A DNA stretch of 54,605 bases from a virus: IMG/VR virus record IMGVR_UViG_3300036770_004582, positions 1 through 54,605 of that record; one strand, written 5' to 3'. The translations under genes were made by a program, and so were the position numbers. Shown in pieces: positions 16,979 through 45,316 of the stretch. The stretch's first letter is position 1; every line of letters begins with the position of its first letter. The notes beneath the pieces were generated by a model. The model did no database searches, had not been told where the DNA came from, and was given only the letters and a program-made list of their open reading frames with translations.

Positions 16979-18538
16979 ATGGCAAGTAATAATCTTGTGC
17001 AGGACTACGCCGCGCTTTTCGCCGGCAACCTCCGCTCCTACGGCGAGTGGAACCCGGACACCGGGAACATGATCACCCATAAAGGGGAAGTACCGATCGA
17101 GGCCTACGAGGCCCACCTAGCAGGAACCCGGGGCTTGGGCATCGTGCCGATTACCGACGGCGGCACCTGCCTTTTTGGTGCCATCGACATCGACAAGCAC
17201 GAGTCACCCGAGGACGTGGACTTCGCCGCGCTGGCGGCCAAGATCCGCGAGTACCGACTCCCGCTGGTTATGTGCCGCACCAAGCGTGGTGGTGCCCACC
17301 TGTATCTTTTTGGGTCCGATTACTTGAATGCGCGGCAGGTGCGGCGGATTCTCGCTTCGTGGCGCGATGTGCTGCAGATCCCGTACAAGACCGAGATCTT
17401 CCCGAAACAGGACTCGCTGACCACCGCCTCGGGAGAGCGTGCGCTTGGCAACTGGATAAACCTCTGCTATTTCGACTGTGAGAACTCGCTGCGGTACGGG
17501 TTCGATGATTCCGGCGAGCCGACCTCCTTCGAGCTCTTCATCCGGCTGGCACAGAACAAGCGGATCTCGGCCGAGGATTTAAACGAACTCTTTCAGCGTG
17601 AGCACTTGGAGGCACCGCCCTGCATCCAGAAAATGATTCACTCGGGTGTGGAGTCCGGCGCGCGAAACGATGCCATGTACAACGTGGTCGTGTACCTCAA
17701 ACGGGCGCGACCCGAGTCGTTCTTCGATGATGCCTTGGAGCTGAACCGCACGATGTTCGACAAGCCACTGGCGCCGGCCGAGGCTAAAAAGGTAATCCGC
17801 TCGGCCTCTCGCCGCGACTACCTGTACAAGTGCAACGAGGAGCCGTGCAAGTCGTTGTGCGACCGCAAGACCTGTGTGACTCGGGAGTTCGGGATCTCGA
17901 TGGACGAGTTAAAAGACCTCGACGCCCACGACTCGCTACCACAGTTCACTGAACTTATCGAGTACCGGTCCGAGCCACCCCGGTGGGGGTTGCACGTCAA
18001 CGGGACGCTCATCCCGAACATTCCGACGGCGGTGTTGCGGGATCCAAGCCTGATGGGAACGCTGATCTTCGAGCAGCTTAAGATAAACATTCCGAAGATG
18101 ACACAGGAGACGTGGCGAAAACGGATCTTGGACCCGTTGGTGCCGGGGCTGCGAGTGATCGAGGTACCAAAGGAGGCGTCGGCATCGGGTGTGATCCAGT
18201 CGAAGTTCACCGAGTTTGTGCAGAAGGCGGACCTGACGCGCGATGGGCGAGACCCGCAGGACCGAAAGGCGCTGCTGCGCAACATCCCGGTGGTGCAGGA
18301 GATAAACGGGCAGCGACATATATTGTTTCGTGGTACCGCCTTCTCGGAGTTCCTCAAGCGCAACAAGGCCGAGGTGCTCACCGGCATGGACTTGTGGACT
18401 TGCCTGCGGCGCGACTGCAACGCGGACCACGACAAAATTCGGATCCCCGGCGGCAAGACGCTGAACGTGTGGATGGCTCCCTTAACCGACGATTATGAGG
18501 TAAAGCTCGATGAACCCGAGTTCACAACAGAATTCTAA
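16979..18538 (+). CDS. Archaeo-eukaryotic-type primase / primase-polymerase
   Basis: The 519-residue protein has an N-terminal AEP catalytic domain of the kind found next to helicases in TOTE-type systems and in phage primase-polymerases. The catalytic Asp pair is in CLFGAIDIDKHE (about 56-67); KRGGAHLYLF (about 102-111) holds the family's conserved His. ERALGNWINLCYF (about 153-165) is the usual third motif region. A Cys cluster (CNEEPCKSLCDRKTC, about 282-296) is a probable zinc site. It should synthesise primers, and perhaps DNA, at replication start. It is the first gene after the GTTCCA-rich repeat and overlaps the helicase gene by 29 bases. Confidence 0.85.
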   Translation: MASNNLVQDYAALFAGNLRSYGEWNPDTGNMITHKGEVPIEAYEAHLAGTRGLGIVPITDGGTCLFGAIDIDKHESPEDVDFAALAAKIREYRLPLVMCRTKRGGAHLYLFGSDYLNARQVRRILASWRDVLQIPYKTEIFPKQDSLTTASGERALGNWINLCYFDCENSLRYGFDDSGEPTSFELFIRLAQNKRISAEDLNELFQREHLEAPPCIQKMIHSGVESGARNDAMYNVVVYLKRARPESFFDDALELNRTMFDKPLAPAEAKKVIRSASRRDYLYKCNEEPCKSLCDRKTCVTREFGISMDELKDLDAHDSLPQFTELIEYRSEPPRWGLHVNGTLIPNIPTAVLRDPSLMGTLIFEQLKINIPKMTQETWRKRILDPLVPGLRVIEVPKEASASGVIQSKFTEFVQKADLTRDGRDPQDRKALLRNIPVVQEINGQRHILFRGTAFSEFLKRNKAEVLTGMDLWTCLRRDCNADHDKIRIPGGKTLNVWMAPLTDDYEVKLDEPEFTTEF

Positions 18539-20249
18539 AGTATGGATCGGCCATGACCCGAAATCTAGCCGTTTTGTTATCATGTGTCCTTCTTGGCTCG
18601 TTGATCGAGTACGTAAGATCCCGAACCGGCGATGGGATTCTCGTCGCAGCCTCTGGACTGCTCCTGTTCTTCGGGCGAACAGCGATTACCTTTTGTCTGC
18701 GTTCCATAAGGACTCGTTTGATCCGCAAGCGTACGAGTGTGCGATAAAGTCGTTAGAACGAAGGCCAGCCGCCGAATACCAGTTCCCCTACCAGTATCGG
18801 TTCCAGACCGAGCCGCGCCCCTACCAGTTTCGGGCGTTGCAGGCGGCATGGGGCAAGACCGCGTTTGCCTACCATATGGACATGGGAACGGGCAAGACCA
18901 AGGTGTCACTCGACCTGTTCTCGGCTTATTTCCAGGACGGCAAGATCGACCGGCTGCTCGTGGTGACCAAGTTCTCGACGCGCAAGAACTGGGAGCGCGA
19001 GATTGGTATCCATATGCCACACCCGGCGGATGTGATGATACTGAACACGCAAAAGCCAAAAGTGTTCGAGGACTGGAACACCGAGGACACCCCACAGTTG
19101 AAGGTGCTGATTGTGGGCACCGAGTCGCTCGCAGCGGGGAATGCGATCCTGTATGCCGAGAAGTTCGTAAATGTGTCCACACGGGTGGGGATGGTAGTGG
19201 ACGAAGCACACATGATAAAGAACCACTCGGCGGTGCGGGCCAAGGCGTGCGTGAAGCTTGGCAAGTCCGCTTCCTACCGAGTCGCTATGACCGGCACGCC
19301 CGTGGCCAACGGGCCAATGGACCTGTACATGCAGTTCGAGTACCTCGACCCTGACATCCTTGGCATCGGCGACTACTACTCGTTCCGAAACCGGTACGCG
19401 GTGATGGGCGGATTCGAGAACAAGGAGATCGTGGGGTACCAGAACATGGAAGAACTGATCGAACTGGTCTCGCCTTTCGTCTTTCAAGTTCGCAAGTCCG
19501 AGGTCCTCACCGAGCTGCCACCGAAGGTGTTCGAGACGCGCGAGGTGCAAATGACCGAGGAGCAGCGGCGGCTGTACAAGGACATTGCCAAGCGAGACGC
19601 GACCACGATGGGGGATCGAGGGATAACCGTAAAATCGGTGTTGGAGCGGATGCTGCGACTGCAGGAGATCACCGGAGGGATCATTACTTTCGAACGCAAC
19701 CCGGACCTGTTCAACAAGGCGAAGTTCGAGCACTCGCGAATCCCGGGCAAGAATCCGAAGGTCGAGGAACTGCTCGCCATCGCCGAGGAGGTCGAGGGGT
19801 CAGTCATCGTTTGGTGCCGGTTCATCGAGGAGATCCGGGCAGTGTCCACCGCGCTGCGTGAGCGATTCGGCGATGCGGAAGTGGTGGAGATTCACGGGGC
19901 TATATCCGAGACCGACCGTGACCGGAACGTGCAGGAGATCTTCCAGCAGGGTCGCGCCCGATTCCTCGTCGGGAACGCCGCCACCGGTGGGGTGGGGCTA
20001 AATATGACGCGGGCCGAAACGGTGGTGTACTTCTCCAATTCGTTCTCCTTTACCGATCGGGAACAGTCGGAGGACCGCGCACACCGAATCGGGCAGACGC
20101 GGTCGGTGACCTACATCGATTTGGTGGCCGAGGGCACGGTGGACGCGACTGTCACCGGTGCATTACGTGAGAAGAAAGACGTATCGGAGTTCGTGCGCAC
20201 CTCGATAAACGAGAAGTCGCCGAATACCTTATTCGGACAGGTCTCCTGA
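18510..20249 (+). CDS. SNF2-family superfamily 2 helicase / translocase
   Basis: The 579-residue protein shows the full SF2/SNF2 motif set: PYQFRALQAAW (Q-motif region), MDMGTGKT (Walker A, about 126-133), VVDEAHMIKNH (DEAH box, about 230), AMTGTPVANGPMDLY (motif III, about 260), VIVWCRFIEEI (motif IV), VGNAATGGVGLNMTRA (motif V) and EDRAHRIGQT (motif VI, the SNF2 hallmark). It lacks an obvious nuclease domain. Coupled to the AEP primase, it probably remodels or unwinds DNA at the fork. The start at 18510 lies inside the primase end; no later start has better support. Confidence 0.9.
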   Translation: MNPSSQQNSKVWIGHDPKSSRFVIMCPSWLVDRVRKIPNRRWDSRRSLWTAPVLRANSDYLLSAFHKDSFDPQAYECAIKSLERRPAAEYQFPYQYRFQTEPRPYQFRALQAAWGKTAFAYHMDMGTGKTKVSLDLFSAYFQDGKIDRLLVVTKFSTRKNWEREIGIHMPHPADVMILNTQKPKVFEDWNTEDTPQLKVLIVGTESLAAGNAILYAEKFVNVSTRVGMVVDEAHMIKNHSAVRAKACVKLGKSASYRVAMTGTPVANGPMDLYMQFEYLDPDILGIGDYYSFRNRYAVMGGFENKEIVGYQNMEELIELVSPFVFQVRKSEVLTELPPKVFETREVQMTEEQRRLYKDIAKRDATTMGDRGITVKSVLERMLRLQEITGGIITFERNPDLFNKAKFEHSRIPGKNPKVEELLAIAEEVEGSVIVWCRFIEEIRAVSTALRERFGDAEVVEIHGAISETDRDRNVQEIFQQGRARFLVGNAATGGVGLNMTRAETVVYFSNSFSFTDREQSEDRAHRIGQTRSVTYIDLVAEGTVDATVTGALREKKDVSEFVRTSINEKSPNTLFGQVS

Positions 20250-21154: not shown

Positions 21155-21901
21155 ATGGCTAAGAACCAACTTGCAGTGAAGGAATCAACCGATCTCGTCT
21201 TTATGGATGCTGTACCCGAGTACATGCGGCAGGGTAACCGGGGTGCGGAGAACGTTGGGAACGAGGATCTTGTAATCCCACGCATCGAGCTGGTCCAGGC
21301 ACTCTCACCCGCACGCAAGAAGTCAGATGCGGCGTACATCGAGGGGGCCGAGGAGGGGATGTTGTTCAATAACGTCACCCGTGCGCTCTACGGCACCGAA
21401 GTCACCGTGGTGCCGGTGTATTACACCAAACAGTACCTCGTCTGGAAGGATCGTAAGACCGGGGGCGGTGGTAGTAACGGCTTCCGGGGTGCGTTCAATA
21501 CCAAAGCCGAGGCGGATGCCGCGATCGCGGCGTTGGGTGAAGAGGGGCTGGAAGCGGTGGATACGGCGCAGCATTTCGTGCTCGTTCACCACGATGGCGC
21601 TTGGCAGGAAGCGGTGCTCTCGATGTCGAAGTCCAAGATGAAGGTGAGCAAGCGTTGGAACTCGCTCATGCGGTTGACCAACACCGATTCCTTTTCGCGA
21701 GCCTACAAGCTCTCGTCCGTGACCGAGACGAATGCACGGAACGAGAGTTATTTCAACTACGGCATCACCGCCTTGGGGTTCATCCCGAAGGAGGTGTACG
21801 AGCGCGCGGAGAAGCTGTACGAAACCGTGCGTGCCGGTACGGTCAAGGTCTCCTCGGACTTTGATGGTGAACCCACTCCTGCTGAAGACACCGAGTATTA
21901 A
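21155..21901 (+). CDS. Probable replication-associated DNA-binding protein, 248 aa
   Basis: The start follows AGGAGC. The protein resembles a family of phage early proteins encoded beside helicase and polymerase genes, with N-terminal NEDLVIPRIELVQALSP, a beta-rich centre (GTEVTVVPVYYTKQYLVW), a KSKMKVSKRWNSLMRL region and FNYGITALGFIP. The C-terminal tail is acidic (DFDGEPTPAEDTEY), as in many single-strand-binding proteins. An OB-fold SSB or recombination mediator is possible; this is an inference from composition and neighbourhood. Its stop overlaps the helicase start. Confidence 0.55.
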   Translation: MAKNQLAVKESTDLVFMDAVPEYMRQGNRGAENVGNEDLVIPRIELVQALSPARKKSDAAYIEGAEEGMLFNNVTRALYGTEVTVVPVYYTKQYLVWKDRKTGGGGSNGFRGAFNTKAEADAAIAALGEEGLEAVDTAQHFVLVHHDGAWQEAVLSMSKSKMKVSKRWNSLMRLTNTDSFSRAYKLSSVTETNARNESYFNYGITALGFIPKEVYERAEKLYETVRAGTVKVSSDFDGEPTPAEDTEY

Positions 21902-23316
21902 TGCGGGTTGAGGCGGTTTACGGACCGCCCGGCACCGGTAAAACTACCGAGCTGCTGCGGCGAGTCCAAGAAGCGCGCGAGGCAGGAGTGCAGGCGGAAC
22001 GGGTGGCATTTGTATCGTTCACCCGAGCCGCCGCCCATGAGGCACTCTTCCGACTAGGCCTAAAACGGTCTGATAACGTCAGCACCATTCACTCGATGGC
22101 GTTTCGGCAGCTGCGGCTCCGGCAGGCGCAGGTGGTGGACACGGCCAAGCTTCGCGAATTCTCAACTATCCTTGGGATCCCGGTGGTAGGAAAATCACCG
22201 GAGGACGACGAGGAGCGGGCAGATGGAGACTTTTACCTTGACATCCTTAACAACGCACGAGCTACCTTTACAAATCCCGCCATGGCTTACGACCTCTCGG
22301 ATCGTCCGGGAACGCGGGCCGAGTTCGATCTATTCGTACGGTCTTACGCTGATTGGAAATCTACCTACGGTTACTATGACTTCTCCGACATGCTCGAACG
22401 AGCCGTTCAGCGTCGGGTCTCGCTGGATGCGGAAGTTATCTTTGTCGACGAAGCTCAAGACCTATCACCTCTTCAGTGGCAGGTTGTCGACCACTTCTGC
22501 CGACGCTCGGATGAAGTGCACATTGCGGGGGACGATGACCAAGCGATCTACACTTGGGCGGGGGCAGATCCTCATGGTATGGCCTCTTTTTGCGAAAAAC
22601 ATGGCGGTCATAGCCAAGTGTTATCAGTCTCACATCGACTTCCTGTTGCTGTCTACGAAAAGTCTCAAGCCCTCATCCGTCGAGTCCTGCGCCGAGTCGA
22701 TAAGAAGTTTAGTTCCAAGGGACATCTGGGACTGGTGCGCTTACATGGCTCGATCAATTCAGTGGACATCGACCCGGCGACCGATACGCTTCTTTTGGCA
22801 CGGACGCACTCGGTGCTTCGCGAGGTCGAACGGGCGCTCATTGACAAACGAGTACCGTATCTGCGGGAATCGGGCCGTCCCGGGATGTATCAGAACAAGA
22901 TTGCAAATGCCATCCGGGCTTTCAATAAACTTGTGGACGGTCAACGCCTGACCGATGGTGAACGCAATTCGCTCTGGACGCAGGCGCTCCCCGAGGTGAA
23001 ACGGGCGCTGGATTCGGGCGATACCAAGTCTGTGGTGGCACGCCCGTTCTACATGCAGCTCGACATCCCGGCGCGGGTGGTGGACTTCTACATGGACGCG
23101 GACCTGCACGCCACGCCGCAGTTGCGACTGTCCACGATTCACTCGGCAAAAGGGATGGAAGCCGAACACGTGGTGTTGCTTACCGACTTGACGACGCGGG
23201 TGCAGCAGACAGCGGAGGCGTCGCCGGACGACGAGGTGCGGGTGTTTTACGTGGGACTGACCCGGAGCAAAAACGTGCTGGATATTGTGGAGGGCTACAA
23301 CGGCTATAAATTGTAG
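21901..23316 (+). CDS. UvrD/RecB-type superfamily 1 helicase
   Basis: The 471-residue protein has the SF1A motifs in order: YGPPGTGKTTEL (about 6-17), FVSFTRAAAHEAL (Ia), VSTIHSMAFR (Ib-like), IFVDEAQDLSPLQW (II, about 180), GDDDQAIYTWAGADP (III, about 205), VLSVSHRLP (IV region), STIHSAKGMEAEHVVLL (V, about 410) and VFYVGLTRSKN (VI). It is shorter than UvrD, having lost most of the accessory 1B/2B regions, as in phage Dda-like enzymes. It probably unwinds DNA 3'-5' in replication or recombination. Confidence 0.9.
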   Translation: MRVEAVYGPPGTGKTTELLRRVQEAREAGVQAERVAFVSFTRAAAHEALFRLGLKRSDNVSTIHSMAFRQLRLRQAQVVDTAKLREFSTILGIPVVGKSPEDDEERADGDFYLDILNNARATFTNPAMAYDLSDRPGTRAEFDLFVRSYADWKSTYGYYDFSDMLERAVQRRVSLDAEVIFVDEAQDLSPLQWQVVDHFCRRSDEVHIAGDDDQAIYTWAGADPHGMASFCEKHGGHSQVLSVSHRLPVAVYEKSQALIRRVLRRVDKKFSSKGHLGLVRLHGSINSVDIDPATDTLLLARTHSVLREVERALIDKRVPYLRESGRPGMYQNKIANAIRAFNKLVDGQRLTDGERNSLWTQALPEVKRALDSGDTKSVVARPFYMQLDIPARVVDFYMDADLHATPQLRLSTIHSAKGMEAEHVVLLTDLTTRVQQTAEASPDDEVRVFYVGLTRSKNVLDIVEGYNGYKL

Positions 23317-23319
23317 GAC

Positions 23320-23349
23320 TTGACGCGATAGTAGGACGGGCGATATAAT
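23320..23349 (+). promoter_or_regulatory. Promoter of the Z-DNA operon (P3)
   Basis: TTGACG (23320-23325), an 18-bp spacer and TATAAT (23344-23349), immediately after the helicase stop. The leader (AGAGGTACCGATTAAC, then CATAGAGGACA) is the shared cassette. No other convincing promoter appears before 28679, so it likely drives ssb, polymerase, purZ, mazZ, datZ and the following small genes together. Confidence 0.75.
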
Positions 23350-23388
23350 AGAGGTACCGATTAACAGACATAGAGGACACTAAAGCAA

Positions 23389-23658
23389 ATGTACGATAAT
23401 ACCAACACCGGTATGATGATGCGCAACGAGAACCGCGAACACGACAAGCAGCCGGAGTTCAAGGGGTCGTTGAATGTAGACGGTCGGGACTTTTGGATCT
23501 CGGCTTGGGTGAACACCGGGAAGGAAGGCTCCAAGATCGAGGGCAAGAAGTACTTCTCGATCAAGCTTACCGCGAAGGATGCACCAAAGGACACCAAGCC
23601 AGCGGCCAAGGCTCGCGTCGGGTTCGAGCGCGATCTTGACGACGAAATCCCCTTCTAG
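23389..23658 (+). CDS. Small SSB-like protein with DDEIPF tail
   Basis: The 89-residue protein begins with a polar disordered stretch. A short beta-rich core follows (EFKGSLNVDGRDFWISAWV, YFSIKLTAKDAP), like the DUF736/small OB-fold proteins. It ends in an acidic tip, DLDDEIPF, which matches the C-terminal protein-interaction tail of bacterial and phage single-strand-binding proteins. Directly upstream of the polymerase, it may coat template DNA or recruit the replisome. Confidence 0.65.
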   Translation: MYDNTNTGMMMRNENREHDKQPEFKGSLNVDGRDFWISAWVNTGKEGSKIEGKKYFSIKLTAKDAPKDTKPAAKARVGFERDLDDEIPF

Positions 23659-23659
23659 T

Positions 23660-25492
23660 ATGTTCCCACGGGTAGATTCCCCGGTCACTGCCGTGATCGA
23701 CTGCGAGACCACCGGGCTGCGGTGGTGGAAGGACCGCGTGTTCGGCGTGGCACTGTTGCTGCCCGGCGCAGACCCCTACTACTGGGACCTGCGGCAGACG
23801 CCCGGGGCGGTAGATTTCCTGCGGGATCTCGCCGGGTCGCCACACGTGGTGCGGTGGGTGAATCATAATTTGAAGTTCGACTATCACTTCCTGCGCGAAG
23901 CGGGCGTGGTGCTCCCGGTCGAGCGGCTACACTGCACGATGGTGCGGGCCGCGCTGATCAACGAGAATGAACCGGTTTACGAGCTGGACTTCTTGGCGCG
24001 CAAGTACGCGAACCAACGGAAAGAATCGGAGATTTACACGCAGCTGGCCGAGATCTTCGGGGGGCGGGCGACGCGCAACGCGCAGATGCCAAATCTGTCA
24101 AAGGCGCCGGCGCAGATCGTGGCACCCTATGCCAAGCAGGACGTGGTGGCGGCGCACGAATTGTACCTGTGGCAGGAGGGCGAGATCGAAAAGCAGGGCC
24201 TGCACCGGGTGTACGAACTTGAGTGCCGGCTAATGCCGGTCATCATCGATATGGAAGAGCAGGGCGTGCGGGTGGACGTGGACCGGGCCGAAGGGGCCGT
24301 TCGTGACCTTACCACGCGGATCGAGCGGATGCAGCGGGAGCTGAATGCGCAGGCGGGATTCGAAGTGAACCCGAACCCCTCGGGGTCGATCGCGCAGCTG
24401 TTCGAACCGAAGCTCGGCGAGGACAACGAGTGGTACCTGATCGACGGGACGCGTGCCGAGAAGACCGAAGGAGGGAAGGCCTCGATCAACGCCGATTGCC
24501 TGCGGCGGATGCGGCACCCGGCGGCAAAAATGATCCTGGATCTGCGCAAGATGCTCAAGACCCGTGATACTTTTCTTTCCGGTCACATCCTTGGGCACCA
24601 CGAGGACGGTGTAATTCATTGCAATTACAACCAGACCAAGAACGACTCGGAGGCCGGGACCGGCACCGGGCGGCTCTCGGTTACAAACCCGGCGCTGCAG
24701 CAGATCCCGTCGCGCGACAAGGACATCAAGGCGCTGATCCGCCCGATTTTTTTGCCCGACCATGGCGCCCGCTGGTTAGGACTTGATTGGTCGCAGTTCG
24801 AGTTCCGGGTGGCGAACCACTATGGCAACGTGCCCGCGATCTTGCGGGCGTACGCGGACAACCCGAATCTGGACTTCCACCAGTTGGTCTCCGATATGAC
24901 CGGGATCCCGAGGAATGCGGAGTACGCCGGTGGTCCTTCCTCTAAGGCCATAAATCTTGGGCTTGCATTCAACATGGGGTCGGGAAAGCTGGCGCAAGAG
25001 TGTGGGCTTCCCTTTACCGAGGAGTCGGGGCCGAACGGGAACGTCTACCTGCGTGCCGGACCCGAGGCGATGGAGCTGTTCGAGCGTTACCACGCTGCGA
25101 ACCCCGGGATGCGGAACATGGCACAAAAAGCGTCAAGTATCGCCAAGGAGCGCGGATTCGTGCATTCGGTGATGGGCCGGCACCTGCGATTCCCGGGCGG
25201 GCAGTTCGTGCACAAAGCTTCGGGGCTAATTTACCAAGCCACCTCGGCCGACTGCATGAAGCAGAAGCTGATCGAGTTGCACGAATACCTGCAGCACCAC
25301 GCCTGCGGGCGGTTGCTGTTGACCATTCACGACGAGGTGGGAATCTCGCTCGATAATGATTCGCCGGAGCACGCCGATGAGGTGGCCCGGATCTATACGA
25401 CTTTTGATGGTATAAAATGCCCAATTGCACTTCGTGTACCAATTACGTGCGAATGGGGTCTGGGTGAAAATTGGTACGAAGCGAAAGGATAA
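23660..25492 (+). CDS. dpoZ: Family A DNA polymerase with 3'-5' exonuclease (DpoZ-like)
   Basis: The 610-residue protein starts at the ATG right after the SSB-like gene. The exonuclease domain shows IDCETTG (Asp14, Glu16), NHNLKFDYHFL (about 68-78) and YAKQDVVAAHELY (about 156-168). The polymerase domain shows motif A LGLDWSQFEFRV (about 372-383), motif B KAINLGLAFNMG (about 429-440) and motif C LTIHDEVGISL (about 553-563). There is no 5'-3' exonuclease domain. The gene abuts purZ, mazZ and datZ, the arrangement described for DpoZ of aminoadenine phages, so it is presumed to copy Z-DNA. Base preference cannot be read from the sequence. No clear ribosome binding site precedes the start, so coupling is likely. 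Confidence 0.9.
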   Translation: MFPRVDSPVTAVIDCETTGLRWWKDRVFGVALLLPGADPYYWDLRQTPGAVDFLRDLAGSPHVVRWVNHNLKFDYHFLREAGVVLPVERLHCTMVRAALINENEPVYELDFLARKYANQRKESEIYTQLAEIFGGRATRNAQMPNLSKAPAQIVAPYAKQDVVAAHELYLWQEGEIEKQGLHRVYELECRLMPVIIDMEEQGVRVDVDRAEGAVRDLTTRIERMQRELNAQAGFEVNPNPSGSIAQLFEPKLGEDNEWYLIDGTRAEKTEGGKASINADCLRRMRHPAAKMILDLRKMLKTRDTFLSGHILGHHEDGVIHCNYNQTKNDSEAGTGTGRLSVTNPALQQIPSRDKDIKALIRPIFLPDHGARWLGLDWSQFEFRVANHYGNVPAILRAYADNPNLDFHQLVSDMTGIPRNAEYAGGPSSKAINLGLAFNMGSGKLAQECGLPFTEESGPNGNVYLRAGPEAMELFERYHAANPGMRNMAQKASSIAKERGFVHSVMGRHLRFPGGQFVHKASGLIYQATSADCMKQKLIELHEYLQHHACGRLLLTIHDEVGISLDNDSPEHADEVARIYTTFDGIKCPIALRVPITCEWGLGENWYEAKG

Positions 25493-25494
25493 GC

Positions 25495-26613
25495 ATGGAA
25501 CATATAGATGTAGTGTTGGACTTGCAGTACGGGAGCACCGGCAAAGGGCTGCTCGTCGGGTGGTTGGCCCAACGCCGCAGGTACGACACGGTCGTGACGA
25601 CTTGGGCACCGAACGCGGGCCACACATTGATCGACGACACCGGGCGCAAGTTCGTACACACGCAGCTGGCGCTCGGCATCGTTTCGCCGTTGTGCAAGCG
25701 CGTGTTGCTTGGGCCGGGGTCGGTGATTGACCCCGTGAAGCTGCTCGATGAAATTGCCAGCTGTGCGGACCTGATCACCGCGAACAACATCCGAATCGCG
25801 ATTCACCCACATGCGGCAGTGGTGCAGGACGGACACCGCGAGGAGGAGGGCGCTAACCCCGGACAAATCGGCTCCACTCGCAAGGGCGTGGGTGCGGCGT
25901 TGATCGACCGGATTCGACGGCGGCTCAACGGTAATGTCGCCATAAACGATGACCGACTCGTTGACTACGTGGTCTCACCCGAACAGTACCGGGAGTTGCT
26001 GCGGCAGTCGTGCTCGGTGTTGGTCGAGGGCGCGCAAGGGTATTCACTTTCGATGTACCATGGCTTCTACCCGTTTACTACCTCGCGGGATGTGAGTACG
26101 TGGCAGATTCTCGCGGATTCGGGTATTCCGTTCAATGAATGCAAGCGGGCAACGTTCGAAGTGTACGGGACCGCGCGGACCTTCCCGATTCGGGTGGCGC
26201 ACCGGTTCGACGATGCGGGGCGGCAGACCGAGAACAGCGGGCCGTTCTACACGGACCAGCACGAGATCTCGTTCGAATCGATTGGACAGCAGCAGGAGCT
26301 GACCACCGTGACGCAGTTGCCGCGCCGGCTGTTTACCTTTTCGGCCAAGCAGATTCAAGAGGCCATCCAGTACAACGGTGCACGCAAGGTGTTCTTGAAC
26401 TTCTGCAACTACGTGCAGCACTTGGGTACCCTGTTGGACATCGTGGATGCGATCGAGAAAGGCGGCGAAGCTCGGGTAGCAGTGATCGGGTTCGGGCCTA
26501 CCACTCGGGATCTGGTCGACATTGACAACTTCTCGGAATTCGCGACCTTGAACGGCTCGCAACGCAGGGCTAAAATTCTTAACGCTTGGAAGGACTATCA
26601 TGCCAAAATATGA
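25495..26613 (+). CDS. purZ: PurZ: 2-aminodeoxyadenylosuccinate synthetase (PurA homologue)
   Basis: The 372-residue protein (start at 25495, behind AAAGGA) is an adenylosuccinate-synthetase homologue. P-loop QYGSTGKG (11-18) replaces WGDEGKG of PurA: Ser14 stands where the catalytic Asp13 of E. coli PurA is, a change reported as a hallmark of phage PurZ. NAGHT (40-44, catalytic His43), GSTRKGVGAAL (126-136, PurA GTTGRGIGPAY), and VEGAQGYSLSMYHGFYPF (177-194) with TTSRDVST are all present. PurZ condenses dGMP and aspartate, ATP-dependently, to the precursor that host PurB converts to dZMP. It is shorter than PurA (about 430). It overlaps mazZ by 14 bases. Confidence 0.92.
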   Translation: MEHIDVVLDLQYGSTGKGLLVGWLAQRRRYDTVVTTWAPNAGHTLIDDTGRKFVHTQLALGIVSPLCKRVLLGPGSVIDPVKLLDEIASCADLITANNIRIAIHPHAAVVQDGHREEEGANPGQIGSTRKGVGAALIDRIRRRLNGNVAINDDRLVDYVVSPEQYRELLRQSCSVLVEGAQGYSLSMYHGFYPFTTSRDVSTWQILADSGIPFNECKRATFEVYGTARTFPIRVAHRFDDAGRQTENSGPFYTDQHEISFESIGQQQELTTVTQLPRRLFTFSAKQIQEAIQYNGARKVFLNFCNYVQHLGTLLDIVDAIEKGGEARVAVIGFGPTTRDLVDIDNFSEFATLNGSQRRAKILNAWKDYHAKI

Positions 26614-27079
26614 ATCGGATTTTCACACCACCGACCGTGCACCGCTCCCTTGGAAGGCGCGCGATACCGAATTGCTCGACGCCAACGGCGCGATGATCGC
26701 TACCTTCGAGGTACGACACACGACCAAAGGCCTGCTTGCCGGCGCCTACAAGAACTGCCAGTGGGCGGCGGACGCGGCGAACCACTACGAACACGACGGG
26801 CTGTTGGCGATGCAAGAGCGCGTGGCGATGTGGGCCGACAAGCAGTTCCCAAACCGGACCACAGCCGATGTGCTTCTGAAGCTTTACGAGGAACTGGGTG
26901 AGTACGCTCGGAACCCGAAGGCGGAGCTGGAATTCGCCGACGTGATGGTGCTGCTGCTGGATGCGGCGCATATGAACGATATTAACATCGCGAAGGCAGT
27001 GGACGAAAAAATGACAATTAATGAGGAGCGAAAATGGCAAGTGGACCCCAACACCCGTATTATGAGGCACGTACCATGA
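26600..27079 (+). CDS. mazZ: MazZ: MazG-like (d)GTP pyrophosphohydrolase
   Basis: The 159-residue protein starts behind GGAAGGA. Residues about 88-145 form an all-alpha MazG/dUTPase-like core with the metal-binding pair KLYEELGEY (Glu97, Glu98, Glu101) and ELEFADVM (Glu111, Asp114). A conserved tail, KMTINEERKW, is typical of the phage MazG-like group. The N-terminal 80 residues are an extension (WADAANHYEHDG-like helix, about 54-70). In aminoadenine phages MazZ turns dGTP into dGMP, the PurZ substrate. The position between purZ and datZ makes that assignment strong. Confidence 0.88.
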   Translation: MPKYESDFHTTDRAPLPWKARDTELLDANGAMIATFEVRHTTKGLLAGAYKNCQWAADAANHYEHDGLLAMQERVAMWADKQFPNRTTADVLLKLYEELGEYARNPKAELEFADVMVLLLDAAHMNDINIAKAVDEKMTINEERKWQVDPNTRIMRHVP

Positions 27080-27342
27080 CCGAGGAGAAGATGATCGAAG
27101 TGGATCCTCGGCACGTGGAGTTCAATCAATGGTTCAACGTACTGTTTCCTGACCAGTCACCCGAGATGCGGTTCCGACTTGTCGCCTCCACCGTGGCCAC
27201 TTGGAACGCGGCACTCACCGTTGCTGCGACGAAGTTCCACATGATGGCACAGGAGGAGGGGTACGACAAACAGCTCACGCCGGACCAAGTGGCGGACTTG
27301 GTAGAACGAATGAAAGTGTCGGAATATGTTAACGTTAACTGA
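27034..27342 (+). CDS. Hypothetical protein between mazZ and datZ
   Basis: The ATG at 27034 has an excellent ribosome binding site (GAGGAGCG, 27022-27029) and gives 102 residues overlapping mazZ by 46 bases. An alternative start at 27076 (ATGA overlapping the mazZ stop) gives 88 residues. The protein is helical (HVEFNQWFNVLFPDQSPEMR, WNAALTVAATKFHMMAQEEG). It overlaps datZ by 17 bases. Not recognised; its place inside the pathway cassette suggests a helper or regulatory role, unproven. Confidence 0.65.
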   Translation: MASGPQHPYYEARTMTEEKMIEVDPRHVEFNQWFNVLFPDQSPEMRFRLVASTVATWNAALTVAATKFHMMAQEEGYDKQLTPDQVADLVERMKVSEYVNVN

Positions 27343-27886
27343 TCAATTACGGGCGGGCCACGTCAACCGGTGGCAAATCGTGCAGACGGCACGGCCGCAG
27401 ACGCTGGCCGAGCATTCGTTCCACGTCTGTGCGCTTGCCGGCGAACTCGCGCTGCTAGCGCAATGGCCGGGGCTGGATGATCCGCACCAGCGGTTAGAAC
27501 TGATCTTTTGGGCCATGTACCACGACTTGATCGAAGTCAAGACCGGGGATTTGGCCACGCCGTTCAAGGAATGCCTACGGCAGGCGGGTGGGGCCGAGAT
27601 CGTGCAAGAGGCCGAGCGGATTGCGGACGAGGAGTACTCGGAGATGCACGCCCGGGTGCGGGGCACCCCAATCGGGGCGATAGTGAAGATCGCCGACATG
27701 ATTGAGGCGGCGTACTTCCTGCAGGACAATGGCTTGGGGTCGCACGCGCAAGAGGTACTTGCGAACATCTACCGCTCGATCCGCGAACTTGCTAACGATT
27801 CGGTCGAGGACTTCCCCGATCTGCATTTGTACCACGCCGCGCAGCTGGTCTGCGAGCGCGTGATCCGTGAAAGGGTATTTCTATGA
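27326..27886 (+). CDS. datZ: DatZ: HD-domain dATP triphosphohydrolase
   Basis: The 186-residue HD-domain phosphohydrolase belongs to the YfbR-like group. Metal ligands are His30 in TLAEHSF, His66-Asp67 in AMYHDLIEV and Asp124 in VKIADMIEA. The N-terminus HVNRWQIV contains a Trp-x-Ile pair (Trp16, Ile18). From memory, this corresponds to the residues lining the adenine pocket in S-2L DatZ. The enzyme removes dATP (to deoxyadenosine and triphosphate), leaving dZTP as the only partner for T. It is coupled by 17-base overlap to the upstream gene. Confidence 0.9.
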   Translation: MLTLTDQLRAGHVNRWQIVQTARPQTLAEHSFHVCALAGELALLAQWPGLDDPHQRLELIFWAMYHDLIEVKTGDLATPFKECLRQAGGAEIVQEAERIADEEYSEMHARVRGTPIGAIVKIADMIEAAYFLQDNGLGSHAQEVLANIYRSIRELANDSVEDFPDLHLYHAAQLVCERVIRERVFL

Positions 27887-28095
27887 AGTGTCCAAAGTGT
27901 GAAGGGGTAACGCGTGTTACGACTACTTACCAGAATAAGGCGAACACTACTCGACGGCGTCGCGAGTGTACGGTATGCAATTACCGATTCACGACCCGGG
28001 AGAGTGCTGAAACGGCGTTGGAGACGTTGGAGGATGAGCGGCAGATGATGCTGGAACTGCGCGAGGAGAAGGACGATGCCGGCGACGCGATTTGA
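27883..28095 (+). CDS. NrdR-like zinc-ribbon protein lacking the ATP-cone
   Basis: The 70-residue protein starts with KCPKCEGVTRVTTTYQNKAN, then RRRRECTVCNYRFTTRES. This matches the N-terminal zinc ribbon of NrdR (CPxC...RRRRxCxxCxxRFTTxE), the repressor of ribonucleotide reductase genes. The ATP-cone that follows in NrdR (about 150 residues in all) is missing, replaced by an acidic helix (ETLEDERQMMLELREEKDD). It overlaps datZ by 4 bases. A decoy or modulator of host nucleotide-reductase control would make sense beside a dNTP-remodelling pathway, but this is inference. Confidence 0.75.
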   Translation: MKCPKCEGVTRVTTTYQNKANTTRRRRECTVCNYRFTTRESAETALETLEDERQMMLELREEKDDAGDAI

Positions 28096-28746: not shown

Positions 28747-29595
28747 ATGACCCCGCTCTACTTCTCCCCTAAGCAACGCACGACCTACGACTTCGTGTCG
28801 TTGAGCAAGATCCCGCTTTTCGTCGAGCAGTCCGGACGCGAGCCGATCACCGACTTCGAGCCGTTCGAGGACCGACATTTCCACCGTGCGCACTCCCCGA
28901 ACTACGTGGCGGATGTCTTTAGCCTGCGCCGCGTCAACGGCTTCGGCAACCGCAACGCCACCGTGAACGAGTCGCTGCGGTACTCCAACGCCGGGTTCCT
29001 CGCGGCCGCGCTGGATGTGCTGGAGCACGGTGGCATTGCCTGCTCGGCCACGCAGGGGTTCCACCACGCGCACTACGACAACGGGTACGGGTACTGTACC
29101 TTCAACGGCCTGATGATCGCGGCGACGCAGGTGATGGAGCGCTGCGGCAAGGTGCTGATCCTGGACGGCGACGGCCACCTCGGGGACGGGACGGACGACA
29201 TCACCGACGTGCTGGGGCTGGAGCGGTACGTGGTGAACGTCACCCGGGGCCGGGGGTTCGCCTCGAACATGGAGCACTGGAATCAAAACATGTGGGACAA
29301 CTGGGTCTGGGGATTGATTCAGCGGCACAAGCCGGGTATAATATTCTATCAGGCCGGCGCAGATGCGTGGATCGAGGATCCCTACAACGCCGGGTACCTA
29401 TCACTCGAAGGGTTAGCATGCAGAGACCGGGCGATATTCAAGGTGGCGCTGGAGGAGAAGATCCCGGTGGTGTGGAATCTCGCCGGCGGCTACTCGACGC
29501 CCATGCAGCAGGTGGTGGACATCCATCTGCAGACCCTACGAATCTCGGACGAGGTGTTGAATGAGCAAAAGCAAAGTAGCGCTCTCCCTGTTTGA
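28747..29595 (+). CDS. Histone-deacetylase-like amidohydrolase
   Basis: The 282-residue protein has the arginase/deacetylase fold signatures of the HDAC, AcuC and acetylpolyamine amidohydrolase superfamily. They are GFHHAHYDNGYGYCTFNGL (His106-His107 dyad), ILDGDGHLGDGT (zinc ligands Asp142, His144), QAGADAWIEDP (third ligand Asp206) and LAGGYS (Tyr249, transition-state Tyr). All catalytic positions are kept. It is shorter than most family members (about 300-380). Substrate unknown: acetyl-lysine on host proteins, acetylpolyamines, or another acyl amide. Its 3' end overlaps the next gene by 35 bases, and both sit behind P4. Confidence 0.85.
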   Translation: MTPLYFSPKQRTTYDFVSLSKIPLFVEQSGREPITDFEPFEDRHFHRAHSPNYVADVFSLRRVNGFGNRNATVNESLRYSNAGFLAAALDVLEHGGIACSATQGFHHAHYDNGYGYCTFNGLMIAATQVMERCGKVLILDGDGHLGDGTDDITDVLGLERYVVNVTRGRGFASNMEHWNQNMWDNWVWGLIQRHKPGIIFYQAGADAWIEDPYNAGYLSLEGLACRDRAIFKVALEEKIPVVWNLAGGYSTPMQQVVDIHLQTLRISDEVLNEQKQSSALPV

Positions 29596-37044: not shown

Positions 37045-37725
37045 ATGGTTACTGGACACTTTAACGATGGTTACATTTCCATCGAGGAACTCGGACCCGA
37101 GACCGTCGCCGAATACGAGCGGCGCGCCGGGTGCTCACTGCAAGTGCTACTGGACGAAATTCGCCGGACTCGTGCGAGGATCCCTGAAAGCTCCTCGTGC
37201 TTGGACGCTTCCTCGCTGACGTGCAACCAGCCGTCGGCGGTAGCAAAAGGTCGACTCAAGCAGTACGAGGAGACAAAGGCCTGGAAGATGCTGGTCTTTT
37301 TGGCCGAGTTTCGCGATGGACAGGACGAGCGGTTCTCGATGCGGTACGCTTACCAAAAGGCCAACGTGGCTCGGACTACGATGCAGACTTGGAGACACGA
37401 CCACCCGCTGTTCGACGCGATGGTGAACTCGGTGTCGGACGAAATGGTCGACGTGATGCGTGCCGAGGCCTTTCGTCGTTCGGTGGTGGGCATTGATGAG
37501 CCGATTTTCTATCAGGGCAACGACACCGGGCATCGGATCAAAAAATACTCGGACTCGCTGCTGCAGTTCACGCTTATGGGGTACGACTCGCGGTTCCGTG
37601 CCAAAGACGTCAATATGAATGTGTCGGGATCACTGGACACGAACGTAAACATTGAGGGATTGCGTGATCAACTTGCCCGTCGGCTCAACGCGAAATCAAA
37701 GACGCAAGAATCGGCTGACTCCTGA
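37045..37725 (+). CDS. terS: Terminase small subunit
   Basis: The ATG at 37045 gives 226 residues; a TTG at 37009 is the promoter -35 and is rejected. Residues about 70-120 form a helix-turn-helix-like DNA-binding part (MRYAYQKANVARTTMQTWRH). The C-terminal portion has the signature of phage small terminases: AEAFRRSVVGIDEPIFYQGN, then IKKYSDSLLQFTLMGYDSRF. It recognises phage DNA for packaging and overlaps the large subunit. No ribosome binding site precedes the start. Confidence 0.85.
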   Translation: MVTGHFNDGYISIEELGPETVAEYERRAGCSLQVLLDEIRRTRARIPESSSCLDASSLTCNQPSAVAKGRLKQYEETKAWKMLVFLAEFRDGQDERFSMRYAYQKANVARTTMQTWRHDHPLFDAMVNSVSDEMVDVMRAEAFRRSVVGIDEPIFYQGNDTGHRIKKYSDSLLQFTLMGYDSRFRAKDVNMNVSGSLDTNVNIEGLRDQLARRLNAKSKTQESADS

Positions 37726-39097
37726 GTCCGAGCACTGGGACCAGTTCGTCGCCGACCTCTCGGGTCCCGAGGTCGTGGAGCTTTACTACGATTGGCCAAC
37801 GTGGGCACGCCCGAACCAGACGATCCCGGAGGAGGACTGGTGGGTCACGTGGCTCATCCTCGCCGGCCGTGGGTGGGGCAAGACCCGCTGCGGTGCCGAG
37901 TTCGTCCGCTACCACGTCGAGAACAAGCTGGCCGGCCGCATCGCGCTGATCGCCGAGGACGCAGGCGACGCCCGGGACGTGATGGTCGAGGGTGAGTCGG
38001 GGATCTTGGCGATCTCGCACCCAAAATGCAAGCCGACGTTCGTACCATCGAAACGCCGCTTGGAGTGGCCCAACGGTGCGATTGCCACCATCTACTCGGA
38101 CAATGACCCCGAGACGCTGCGAGGCCCGCAGCACGACCTTTTTTGGTGTGATGAGTTGGCCAAGTTCCGCAACCCCGAGGAGATGTGGTCGAACCTGATG
38201 TTCGGACTGCGCCTCGGTGTGCACCCACGCGGTGTGGTCACCACCACGCCCAAGCCCATTCCCATCGTGCGTCGGCTGATGGAGGACGAGCGCACGTACA
38301 TGACGACCGGCACGACGCACGAAAATTTCGTGAATCTCGCACCTTCCTTTCGCGACGAAATTATCGCGCAGTACGAGGGCACCCGAATCGGACGCCAGGA
38401 GCTGTACGCCGAGGTGATTGACCCCGAGGACTACGGCATCATCAAACGCGACTGGTTCCGGCTGTGGCCCGCCGAGCGCGAATTCCCCGAGTTCGTGTAC
38501 GTGCTGCAGTCCTACGACTGCGCCTACACGGAAAAGACGATCAACGACCCGACCGCCTGCTCGGTCTGGGGCATCTTCCGACCGGACGACGACTCGCCCT
38601 TTTGTGCCATGTTGCTCGACTGCTGGGAGGATTTCCTGGCTTACCCCGATCTTCGCCCCAAAATCATCGACGAGTACCAGTCGATCTACGGCGAGCCGGG
38701 CAAAAAGGTCGACATGGTGCTGGTCGAGGACAAGGCCGCAGGCATCTCGATCATCCAAGACCTGCAGCGCGCAGGCATCCCGTGCCGCGCCTACAACCCG
38801 GGCCGAGCGGACAAGGTCCAGCGGCTGCACCTCGTGGCCAACATCATCGCCCGAGGCCGCGTCTACATTCCCGAGTCCACCGTGCACCCGGGGCAGCCAC
38901 GCGATTGGGCGGATCTGCTGGTCTCGCAGGTCTGCTCCTTCCCTGAGTCGCAGCGCGACGACCTGACCGACACGACCTCGCAGGCGCTGCGGCTGTTGCG
39001 CGACCTGACTTTCCTTTCCATTGACCCCGCGCCCGTCGAGGACGAGTACTACGACGAGGACGAGCAACGCACGAAGGTGAACCCTTATGCAGTATGA
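37664..39097 (+). CDS. terL: Terminase large subunit (ATPase/nuclease)
   Basis: The start is uncertain: GTG at 37664 has GAGGGA just upstream, while TTG at 37652 has none. The product is about 477 residues. The ATPase domain shows Walker A LAGRGWGKTRCG, Walker B DLFWCDELAK, and coupling motif GVVTTTPKP. The RNase H-like nuclease shows LQSYDCAYTE, then VEDKAAGISIIQDLQ and a C-terminal DLTDTTSQAL. It moves DNA into the prohead and cuts concatemers. It overlaps the small subunit by about 60 bases and the next gene by 11. Confidence 0.92.
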   Translation: MINLPVGSTRNQRRKNRLTPESEHWDQFVADLSGPEVVELYYDWPTWARPNQTIPEEDWWVTWLILAGRGWGKTRCGAEFVRYHVENKLAGRIALIAEDAGDARDVMVEGESGILAISHPKCKPTFVPSKRRLEWPNGAIATIYSDNDPETLRGPQHDLFWCDELAKFRNPEEMWSNLMFGLRLGVHPRGVVTTTPKPIPIVRRLMEDERTYMTTGTTHENFVNLAPSFRDEIIAQYEGTRIGRQELYAEVIDPEDYGIIKRDWFRLWPAEREFPEFVYVLQSYDCAYTEKTINDPTACSVWGIFRPDDDSPFCAMLLDCWEDFLAYPDLRPKIIDEYQSIYGEPGKKVDMVLVEDKAAGISIIQDLQRAGIPCRAYNPGRADKVQRLHLVANIIARGRVYIPESTVHPGQPRDWADLLVSQVCSFPESQRDDLTDTTSQALRLLRDLTFLSIDPAPVEDEYYDEDEQRTKVNPYAV

Positions 39098-39806
39098 TCC
39101 CCTTGAACTCGCATTGCTTTACGAGCAAAATGGCTACTCGAAAGGCGGCAAGGTCGTCGATTTTCTGGTCGAGGTGCTCAAAGGCGGCAGCAAGCCGACC
39201 GATACGAAACGCCGCGCCGCGATGGGGCTGCCCAAGGACCTGACACCCAAGCCCGGTGAGGTCGTGGTCAAGGAGGAGGTTAAGACCGCGCCGAAGAAGG
39301 GCGAAACGTCGGTCTCCATGACCGAGGCTATGAACATCCCGATGTCGCGTCGTGACGTATTGCGTGCCGGTGCAGGGCAGGCAGCAAACGCCATGGCACC
39401 GCGCGGTGCGTTGGGTTCGCTCATGCAGATGGCCAGCTCGCCCATGAATCTTGCGCGCAGCATCGCACCACCCGCCGGTTCTTCCACACTGCAAGGTCTG
39501 ATCGCTCAGGCACTCGCTCGTGGGATGAGCGAGGAGGATTTGGTAAAGCTCGCCGCCGGTGTCCGTCCGGATCTACAGGATTTCGAGGTGTTGTACCTGT
39601 CGGACCTGATGCGTGCACCTACCGATTTTATGCATGAGTTCGCGGATCAAGCCGGACCGTTGGCCAATATGCGCTCGATGCTCAACGTGCCGGAAGGCAC
39701 GGGTATTAAATCGGCACTACGTGAAATTCGGGGTGCCGATCCTAAAATGTACGAAGGATTAAAACAGGCCGCGCGAGACATCAGCGACCTTTCAATGGAA
39801 CCTTAA
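39087..39806 (+). CDS. Virion/assembly-region protein with twin-Arg-like motif
   Basis: The 239-residue protein has KGGKVVDFLVEVLKGGSK near the N-terminus. An internal SRRDVLRAGAGQAANAMAPR (about 87-106) resembles a twin-arginine motif followed by a weakly hydrophobic stretch, and a helical C-terminal domain follows. Similar proteins sit between terminase and portal in environmental phages in my memory. It is not at the N-terminus, so export by Tat is unlikely. Function unknown. Confidence 0.65.
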   Translation: MQYDPLELALLYEQNGYSKGGKVVDFLVEVLKGGSKPTDTKRRAAMGLPKDLTPKPGEVVVKEEVKTAPKKGETSVSMTEAMNIPMSRRDVLRAGAGQAANAMAPRGALGSLMQMASSPMNLARSIAPPAGSSTLQGLIAQALARGMSEEDLVKLAAGVRPDLQDFEVLYLSDLMRAPTDFMHEFADQAGPLANMRSMLNVPEGTGIKSALREIRGADPKMYEGLKQAARDISDLSMEP

Positions 39807-39809
39807 ATT

Positions 39810-42347
39810 ATGGCAATCGAATTTCCCCAACCACAAATGCCTGAGGACGAGCAGTTCGACCCGATGCAGCAGGGTGCGCCCGAGGAGGACGACGGCGGCA
39901 TGATGGTCGACATCGAGGAGGAGTTCGCCGAGGTCGAAGAGCAGCCGGATGGATCCGCGATTGTGCGGATGGAGGAGTTCAAGGGGCCAACCGATGACCA
40001 GGACTTTTACCAGAATCTCGCCGACACGTTGCCCGAGCACGAACTCAAAAGTCTTGCAATGCGGTACCTGCAGCTGATCGACAAGGACCACGAAGCACGC
40101 AAGCAGCGCGACAAGCAGTACGAGGAGGGCATTCGCCGCACGGGTCTGGGTAACGACGCCCCGGGTGGTGCCGACTTCCAAGGGGCCAGCAAGGTGGTAC
40201 ACCCGGTAATGGCCGAGGCCTGTGTGGACTTCGAGGCACGGGCGATCCGGGAGCTTTTCCCACCCGATGGGCCGGTGCGAACGCAGATCCTCGGGGAGTC
40301 GAACGAGGAACTTACGCGGCGGGCCGAGCGCAAGCGGGATTTCATGAACTGGCAGTTGACCGAGCAGATCCCCGAGTTCCGGGACGAGCAGGAGCAGATG
40401 CTGACGCAGTTGCCGCTGGGTGGTTCGCAGTTCTTGAAGGTCTGGTTCGATGAGCGGCTCAAGCGCCCTTGCGTCGAGTTCATCCCAATCGACAACGTGC
40501 TGCTGCCTTTTGCCGCGACAAACTTTTACTCCGCGCAGCGCGCCACCGAGATTCACGACATCACGCAGTTCACGTTCGAGGAGCGCATCTCGTCGGGCCT
40601 CTACCGTGACGTTTCGATCATTCGGGCCACGATGGAGCCGGAGCTGTCGGAAGCGCAAAAGGCAACGGACAAGGTCGAGGGGAAATCGCCGAATGAAAAC
40701 GAAGATGGCGTGCGTCGTGTTTACCATATTTACACTTATCTGGAGCTGGAGGACGATTCGCATTCGAAGGGGGATTACGCGCCTTACATCCTGATGATTG
40801 ATGAGTTGGACACCGAGGTGGTGGGCCTGTACCGCAACTGGGAGATGGGCGACGCGACGATGCGCAAGCTCGACTGGGTGGTCGAGTTCAAGTTCATCCC
40901 GTGGCGTGGTGCCTACGCCATTGGGTTACCACACCTGATAGGAGGTCTTTCGGCTGCATTGACCGGTGCGTTACGTGCGCTGCTCGATACCGCGCACATC
41001 AATAATTCGGCAACGATGCTCAAGCTCAAAGGAGCGAAGATTTCGGGCCAATCCCAATCGGTGGACGTTACGCAGGTGACCGAAATCGAAGGGGCGCCGG
41101 GCGTGGACGACATCCGCAAGATCGCCATGCCGATGCCATTCAATCCTCCGAGCGAAACGCTCTTCAAGCTGCTCGGCTGGTTGTCGAATGCAGCCAAAGG
41201 CGTGGTGACGACCTCGGAGGAAAAGATCGCCGACATCACCTCAAACGCGCCGGTAGGCACGACGCAGGCGTTGATCGAGCAGGGCGCGGCGGTGTTCTCC
41301 GCCATTCACGCCCGGTTGCACGACTCGCAGCGCCGGGTGCTGATGATCCTGCAGCGGATTGACCGGTGGTACTTGGACGAGATGGTCGGACCCGACATGC
41401 CGACGCAGTTGGAAATCCGGCGCGAGGACTTTAACCGTTCGACCGACGTGATCCCGGTGTCCGATCCGCACATCTTCTCCGAGACGCAGCGGATGGCGCA
41501 GAATCAGGCGGTGATGGCGTACATGAAAGAGTACCCGCAGCTGTTCGACCAGCGGGCGGTGGTGTACCGGGCGCTGAAGCAAATGAAGATTCCGAATATC
41601 ACCGAACTGATGCCGGCGGTGTCGGAGCCGATGGAGATAAACGCCGCTGAGGAAAACGCGGCGATGTCGATTGGTCGCGCCGCATACGCGTACCCACACC
41701 AGAACCAGTTGGCACACATCCAGGCGCACTTGGACTACGCGCTCAACCCGATGCTGGGGTCGAACCTGATTATCGCCAGGACTTTCCTGCCGATGTGCTT
41801 GGAGCACCTCAAGCAGCACCTGATGCTCTGGTACATGAACCACATGAACGGGTACGTCGAGGAGTCGCTCGGTGGCAAGGTCAAGGACTACCATGTCGCC
41901 GGCATCACGGGCGACATCGACAAGCTCTACGCGCTCGCCTCGCAGCACACGATCATGGACGTGCAGGAGTCGTTCGCCAAGGTTATGCCGGCGCTGCAGC
42001 AACTGCAGCAGGTGTTGCAGTCGTTTGCGCCGAAGCCACAGATGGACGGGGGCGATCAGGTGATCCTGCAGACGTCGATGGCCGAGACGCAACGGCGGGC
42101 GGCAAAAGATCAGACCGACGCGCAGCTGAAAGCCGAGGAGCTGCGGCAGCGGGCGCTGAATGAGAACCGCGAGCAGCAGATCAAGATTGCGCTGAACGCG
42201 GCCGATAACCTTACCGACGAACGGATTAAGACTGCGGAGATCACACGGGACACCATGGCTCTGCAGCAGGAGCAGCAACAGGCTGCGGTAACCGCCCTGC
42301 AAGGGGCAACTGACCTATTAAGGAGGCCACCAAATGGCAACGTCTGA
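39810..42347 (+). CDS. Portal protein
   Basis: The 845-residue protein resembles the large portals of SU10/phiEco32 and P22-like podoviruses. The acidic N-terminus is followed by the core motif ADFQGASKVVHPVMAEACVD (about 120-139), FEARAIRELFPPDGPVRTQI, and the wing and stem region (YAIGLPHLIGGLSAALTGAL, about 370). The long C-terminal helical barrel has Gln-rich coiled coil (about 700-845, LQQLQQVLQSFAPKPQ). It forms the dodecameric DNA channel and binds terminase and the adaptor. Confidence 0.9.
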   Translation: MAIEFPQPQMPEDEQFDPMQQGAPEEDDGGMMVDIEEEFAEVEEQPDGSAIVRMEEFKGPTDDQDFYQNLADTLPEHELKSLAMRYLQLIDKDHEARKQRDKQYEEGIRRTGLGNDAPGGADFQGASKVVHPVMAEACVDFEARAIRELFPPDGPVRTQILGESNEELTRRAERKRDFMNWQLTEQIPEFRDEQEQMLTQLPLGGSQFLKVWFDERLKRPCVEFIPIDNVLLPFAATNFYSAQRATEIHDITQFTFEERISSGLYRDVSIIRATMEPELSEAQKATDKVEGKSPNENEDGVRRVYHIYTYLELEDDSHSKGDYAPYILMIDELDTEVVGLYRNWEMGDATMRKLDWVVEFKFIPWRGAYAIGLPHLIGGLSAALTGALRALLDTAHINNSATMLKLKGAKISGQSQSVDVTQVTEIEGAPGVDDIRKIAMPMPFNPPSETLFKLLGWLSNAAKGVVTTSEEKIADITSNAPVGTTQALIEQGAAVFSAIHARLHDSQRRVLMILQRIDRWYLDEMVGPDMPTQLEIRREDFNRSTDVIPVSDPHIFSETQRMAQNQAVMAYMKEYPQLFDQRAVVYRALKQMKIPNITELMPAVSEPMEINAAEENAAMSIGRAAYAYPHQNQLAHIQAHLDYALNPMLGSNLIIARTFLPMCLEHLKQHLMLWYMNHMNGYVEESLGGKVKDYHVAGITGDIDKLYALASQHTIMDVQESFAKVMPALQQLQQVLQSFAPKPQMDGGDQVILQTSMAETQRRAAKDQTDAQLKAEELRQRALNENREQQIKIALNAADNLTDERIKTAEITRDTMALQQEQQQAAVTALQGATDLLRRPPNGNV

Positions 42348-42516: not shown

Positions 42517-42517
42517 T

Positions 42518-44113: not shown

Positions 44114-44117
44114 GGAA

Positions 44118-44657: not shown

Positions 44658-44699
44658 AGACGGTAGCGATCATGTACACTTTACCTAAGGAGAAAAGCT

Positions 44700-45302: not shown

Positions 45303-45316
45303 GGAGGGCATAAAAA

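Follow-up and report, generated by a model that had tools for sequence, protein, structure and literature searches.

Phages whose DNA carries 2-aminoadenine (Z) in place of adenine have been described several times, and the published examples encode variants of DpoZ, PurZ, DatZ and MazZ (PMC8342488, PMC8599892, PMC8515928). A 2026 survey of 53,887 NCBI viruses counted 147 phage PurZ sequences and at least seven groups of Z phages, with MazZ of either the MazZ-2 or the DUF550 type, the latter often fused to DUF5664 (PMC12884076). The polymerase of Vibrio phage phiVC8 shows a preference for Z that is graded (PMC8599892).

Here we analyze the 54,605-base virus record IMGVR_UViG_3300036770_004582 (the window), read as one strand, which represents nearly all of the genome of an uncultured tailed phage. 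A near-identity DNA search with 24 kb of the window found nothing among 50,697 phage records. From its gene content, this phage very probably makes DNA in which Z takes the place of adenine. An earlier note on this DNA had listed genes for an SSB-like protein, a family A polymerase, a PurA homologue, a MazG-like protein and a YfbR-like HD protein at 23320-27886; profile and structure matches placed all five there, although a sixth open reading frame (ORF) between mazZ and datZ had been overlooked. The Z cluster lies on the plus strand in the order promoter, SSB, DpoZ, PurZ, MazZ, small ORF, DatZ, with all genes on one strand and neighbors separated by a few bases or overlapping, and overlapping genes run on past datZ as far as 28339. 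Upstream of the cluster is a sigma-70-type promoter, TTGACG-18-TATAAT (23320-23349, plus strand). The pattern TTGAC-N17-19-TATAAT occurs at nine sites in the window, all on the plus strand, compared with 0.03 expected from shuffling, indicating a genuine signal class in this genome, and it is plausible that the Z cluster forms a single operon driven from this one predicted promoter. Similar promoters are found at 28679, 31770, 33304, 34879, 35541 and elsewhere, several of them sharing a CCCGTGTTATAAT-like extended -10 region.

The gene encoding PurZ (predicted 2-aminodeoxyadenylosuccinate synthetase, 372 aa; 25495-26613, plus strand) matches model NF038379 with 316.7 bits (1.3e-94; cut-off 300) and scores well under the PurA equivalog cut-offs, and its best solved structure is S-2L PurZ (7odx, 7e-83). 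Determinant residues for S-2L PurZ and MazZ were taken from PMC8342488. In the GSTGKG motif of the window protein, Ser14 stands at the position of the catalytic Asp13 of PurA, and Ser is present in 42 of 42 lineage members; S14, N40, H43, T44, T128, R142, Q181, R233, V234 and R277 are kept, as is the aspartate loop TTVT. The earlier wording "PurZ P-loop" is loose; the hallmark of PurZ is GSTGKG, with Ser14 where PurA has Asp. In a PurZ/PurA tree of 68 rows (62 of them PurZ, with a PurA outgroup of three sequences, one of which came from a printed PDB alignment), the window groups with the phiVC8, S-2L and SH-Ab proteins within the clade of phage PurZ (100/99), while PurA and PurZ0 are both separate from it. 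Within that clade it belongs to a 19-row group (100/98) that otherwise contains only IMG/VR contigs. Grouping within cellular PurA, named beforehand as an outcome that would tell against a Z pathway, did not occur, and a PurA-like origin of PurZ was ruled out by the tree placement and by the Ser replacing Asp in the active site. As a separate observation, PurZ-like genes with GSTGKG were also seen in two proteobacterial metagenome contigs (L103, DJLZ01000001.1, a 994 kb contig, at 6001-6990; and L104, at 6001-6987), near which matches to DpoZ, DatZ and MazZ were not found.

Immediately upstream of purZ lie genes for an SSB-like protein (89 aa; 23389-23658, plus strand; phrog_18154, 5.9e-14), which is kept in the lineage, and for DpoZ (610 aa; 23660-25492, plus strand), a predicted aminoadenine-incorporating family A DNA polymerase with a 3'-5' exonuclease. 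DpoZ matches NF038380 with 799.8 bits (1.5e-240; model cut-off 500) and a second DpoZ model with only 23.5 bits; its region also matches PF00476 (2e-47), and the best solved structure is phiVC8 DpoZ (7pbk, 1.2e-135). Using the phiVC8 determinants in PMC8599892, we found that L433, F437 and G522 correspond to phiVC8 L455, F459 and G548, and that the helix-O insertion is also present, whereas in E. coli Pol I and in two non-Z phage polymerases the F459 position is occupied by Tyr and the G548 position by Asn. Residue mapping also located the exonuclease residues. In a polymerase tree, the window clusters with DpoZ, separate from the two non-Z phage polymerases, and ten lineage sequences form one group (100/100) that belongs to neither the SH-Ab nor the phiVC8 group.

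MazZ, a predicted MazZ-1 type (d)GTP pyrophosphohydrolase of 159 aa (26600-27079, plus strand), has a weaker family match than the other Z enzymes (PF04447, 5.4e-10), with S-2L MazZ as its best solved structure (7ody, 4e-11). K94, E97, E98, E101, E111, D114, L118, D121, K137, N141, R144 and W146 are kept, including all of the metal ligands E35, E38, E50, D53 and R83 and the guanine-side D60 in S-2L numbering; at the position of S-2L I56 the window has Val, while all 41 other lineage members have Ile. The protein consists of DUF550 plus an unfamiliar N-terminal extension of roughly 65 aa, for which a Pfam search gave no match. The overlooked 102-aa ORF (27034-27342, plus strand) overlaps both mazZ and datZ, and its clear homologues are confined to the two nearest contigs, L020 and L021 (55-61%); those in L032 and L034 are weak (36%).

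DatZ is a 186-aa HD-domain protein (27326-27886, plus strand) predicted to be a dATP triphosphohydrolase. It matches phrog_7076, the family of that name, at 6e-32, and the structure of S-2L DatZ (6zpa) at 5.3e-18 compared with 9e-9 for YfbR. The HMM searches that the earlier note had suggested scored above the cut-offs for DpoZ and PurZ and found this family for DatZ. Kept residues are R15, W16, I18, Q25, A28, H30, H66, D67, E70, G74, P79, K81, K121 and D124; all of the determinants given for S-2L in PMC8065100 (R19, W20, I22, K81, K116, Q29, A32 and G74 in S-2L numbering) are present along with the HD metal ligands, although the alignment places Glu at the K116 position in 7 of 41 lineage members. 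As E. coli YfbR has the same determinants except I22, Q29 and A32, the catalytic residues, those for metal and phosphate included, are largely common to both and are by themselves no proof of a triphosphatase; the prediction that DatZ hydrolyzes dATP in this way is drawn from its family score and its context. In the DatZ tree, lineage members group together (98/99), but the deeper branches are long, few are supported, and the split between YfbR and DatZ is poorly resolved. A tblastn search with DatZ matched 60 phage records; the host genera listed for them all fall within those of the PurZ search.

Could these be ordinary nucleotide enzymes, with PurZ a cellular-type PurA acquired for host purine synthesis, the hydrolases general nucleotide-pool enzymes and the DNA unmodified? 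Other phages also have PurA, MazG and YfbR homologues, and a DUF550 protein matching MazZ occurs in many Klebsiella phages. Against this stand the Ser at the catalytic Asp position, the nesting of the protein among phage PurZ sequences, the DpoZ signature residues, and a gene set and order kept in about 40 contigs, and we regard such an origin as highly improbable. Published determinants in all four enzymes, together with the placement of PurZ, instead support a Z-genome pathway, as had been proposed.

From the characterized homologues we infer each enzyme activity, the flow of the pathway and the full replacement of A by Z in the virion. MazZ would convert (d)GTP to (d)GMP, and PurZ would join dGMP to aspartate. 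Host PurB and nucleotide kinases, enzymes that we assume to be present, would then complete dZTP; in phiVC8, host PurB and nucleotide kinases have reportedly been established as performing this final step. DatZ would destroy dATP, and DpoZ with SSB would copy the genome, preferring Z opposite T. The Z polymerases known so far are selective rather than exclusive, which counts against full replacement, and the genes could be intact yet the DNA a mixture of A and Z, if DatZ and MazZ acted incompletely or DpoZ tolerated dATP. In keeping with such a mixture, the S-2L Z cluster gave only partial replacement in E. coli (PMC8342488), and phiVC8 DpoZ has a graded preference (PMC8599892). However, the window encodes DpoZ, DatZ and MazZ, the full set seen in complete-replacement phages, with their determinants kept, and partial substitution therefore appears unlikely compared with the complete replacement that we favor.

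An alignment search of IMG/VR with PurZ returned at least 396 related loci, 80 of which were kept. Gene order was compared in forty loci (L020-L059) plus L002. The order SNF2 helicase, Pam3 gp32/gp33/gp34-like genes, UvrD, SSB, DpoZ, PurZ, MazZ, DatZ, zinc ribbon and HDAC-like protein, followed by further ORFs, holds in nearly all of these loci where flanking sequence reaches, and the mapped active-site residues of PurZ, MazZ, DatZ and DpoZ are nearly all invariant in 35-42 lineage members. In the window, this conserved replication module includes a UvrD-like helicase (21901-23316; PF00580, 4.6e-27) in the same order as across the lineage and, in its upstream part, an SNF2 helicase (18510-20249; PF00176, 7.5e-33) and an AEP primase (16979-18538; PF22548, 2.8e-11; PF08708; phrog_21866), all on the plus strand. 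The primase has AEP-TOTE and PriCT_1 domains, and Pfam places it among AEP primases, making this a Z phage with an AEP primase in addition to DpoZ; a comparison with solved structures gave no usable match. Kinship with the PrimPol of S-2L was considered and dropped, as BLAST similarity between the two was absent despite the AEP label that Pfam gives the window primase.

Among lineage pairs with dS of 0.15-1.0, median dN/dS was 0.04 for DpoZ, 0.08 for DatZ, 0.09 for PurZ, 0.11 for MazZ, 0.12 for the zinc ribbon and 0.16 for both SSB and HDAC, indicating that all of these genes are maintained by purifying selection. The lineage is apparently sizeable and uncultured; it is without a relative among deposited phages at the DNA level and is new here. 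A PurZ search of genome contigs returned seven contigs assembled from metagenomes, in which PurZ was distant, and pointed to no clear host of the lineage.

Two further genes travel with the cluster. The first encodes an NrdR-like zinc ribbon protein (70 aa; 27883-28095, plus strand; PF22811, 3.4e-9) that overlaps the datZ stop in an ATGA and is present in 40 lineage contigs; an ATP-cone search gave no match. The second, with its own promoter at 28679, encodes an HDAC-fold zinc hydrolase (282 aa; 28747-29595, plus strand; PF00850, 7e-28; 9gkv, 1e-21) whose motifs FHH, DGDxH, AGAD and GGY are intact and kept across the lineage, and which by tblastn matched only 6 of 50,697 phage records. Among the other Z phages and contigs examined, neither gene turned up close to PurZ, and the literature library searched yielded no publication describing an NrdR-like zinc ribbon from Z phages. 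Viral deacetylases acting on polyamines have been reported from giant viruses (PMC9992855). The zinc ribbon may be a candidate binder of NrdR boxes at host ribonucleotide reductase genes, and a Z-linked role for either protein is speculative. We give a low, though appreciable, probability to the idea that they are two further parts of the Z system: as dATP is being destroyed, the zinc ribbon would reprogram the ribonucleotide reductase genes of the host, and the HDAC-fold protein would be a deacylase of polyamines or of some other substrate that is linked to nucleic acid and suits Z-DNA.

The head module (37652-46231) encodes a terminase (37652-39097), a portal (39810-42347) and a capsid protein (45317-46231), and an SU10-type adaptor is encoded at 2247-2882 (PF24175, 6.9e-25; 89.1 bits, cut-off 27), all on the plus strand. 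As SU10 has a short tail (PMC9509320), this adaptor homologue predicts a short tail here as well, but the nearest capsid relative, Caudoviricetes sp. ctpbd312 (MW202545, a complete environmental genome), was deposited as Siphoviridae. The capsid and portal of ctpbd312 are 89% and 63% identical to those of the window, and it also has the terminase, the adaptor and several other structural and tail genes, but DpoZ, PurZ, MazZ, DatZ, SSB and UvrD were not found in it. Caulobacter phage RW (Riverwalk) likewise has the terminase, adaptor and several tail genes in common with the window, with a 46% identical portal; none of DpoZ, PurZ, MazZ and DatZ was found within the 49.9 of its 62.4 kb examined. 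A 1,689-aa protein (6602-11671), for which Pfam and PHROG matches were absent, has only short stretches in common with ctpbd312 and RW proteins. The protein at 49489-50562 matches the SU10 adaptor family weakly and below the cut-off, contains an F5/8 type C-like stretch and shares 62% identity with what is annotated in ctpbd312 as a tail adaptor.

That the closest deposited capsid relative lacks any Z gene is what one would see if the cluster were an assembly chimera joined onto an unrelated phage contig. We consider the probability of this negligible: long lineage contigs (47-59 kb) encode homologous portals and SU10-type adaptors, and fourteen of them, with different IMG record numbers, combine the same Z module with the portal (70-85%) and adaptor (70-85%), so that independent contigs refute a chimeric join. 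In one long contig the portal is split across both ends, as a circularly permuted or terminally redundant genome would give. The simplest reading is that the whole replication/Z module has been exchanged on one virion type. With the capsid set common to ctpbd312, which lacks Z genes, the lineage allows genomes of A-DNA and of Z-DNA to be compared as they naturally occur in closely related shells.

With this lineage, the phages that use an altered genetic alphabet gain a group that is apparently uncultured, and its conserved accessory genes are new testable candidates. Set against the 147 PurZ sequences of the NCBI survey (PMC12884076), the at least 396 PurZ-related loci in IMG/VR suggest that Z genomes are probably undercounted. 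The earlier note had expected the window to widen the range of Z-genome phages; podoviruses among them, namely phiVC8, VP2, VP5 and ZP6, were already published (PMC8599892, PMC8515928), whereas the capsid module and the lineage are new.

The window resembles different known Z phages in different respects. Cyanophage S-2L has the same purZ-mazZ-datZ order and a MazZ of the MazZ-1 type, and its PurZ is the nearest among deposited phages (45%), but it has a PrimPol instead of DpoZ, whereas the window has DpoZ and an AEP-family primase. The short-tailed phiVC8 (Vibrio) and ZP6 (Alteromonas) have DpoZ of the same class, PurZ (43% and 39% identical) and DatZ as in the window; unlike it, they have MazZ-2, a primase gene between DpoZ and PurZ, and genomes of about 39 kb, and their PurZ forms its own well-supported clade, separate from that of the window. 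In the group of SH-Ab 15497 (Acinetobacter), PMBT28 (Salmonella) and PSA28 (Pseudomonas), UvrD, SSB, DpoZ, PurZ (41-44% identical), a DUF550-type MazZ and DatZ are found in near-identical order, except that SSB follows DpoZ, whereas in the window it precedes it. Their MazZ has a long N-terminal part (a DUF5664 fusion, PMC12884076) where the window protein has a short, unrelated extension, and their virion genes were absent from the portal and terminase search matches. As the pathway itself was already known from these phages, what the window adds is the lineage, the capsid combination, the MazZ extension and the two accessory genes.
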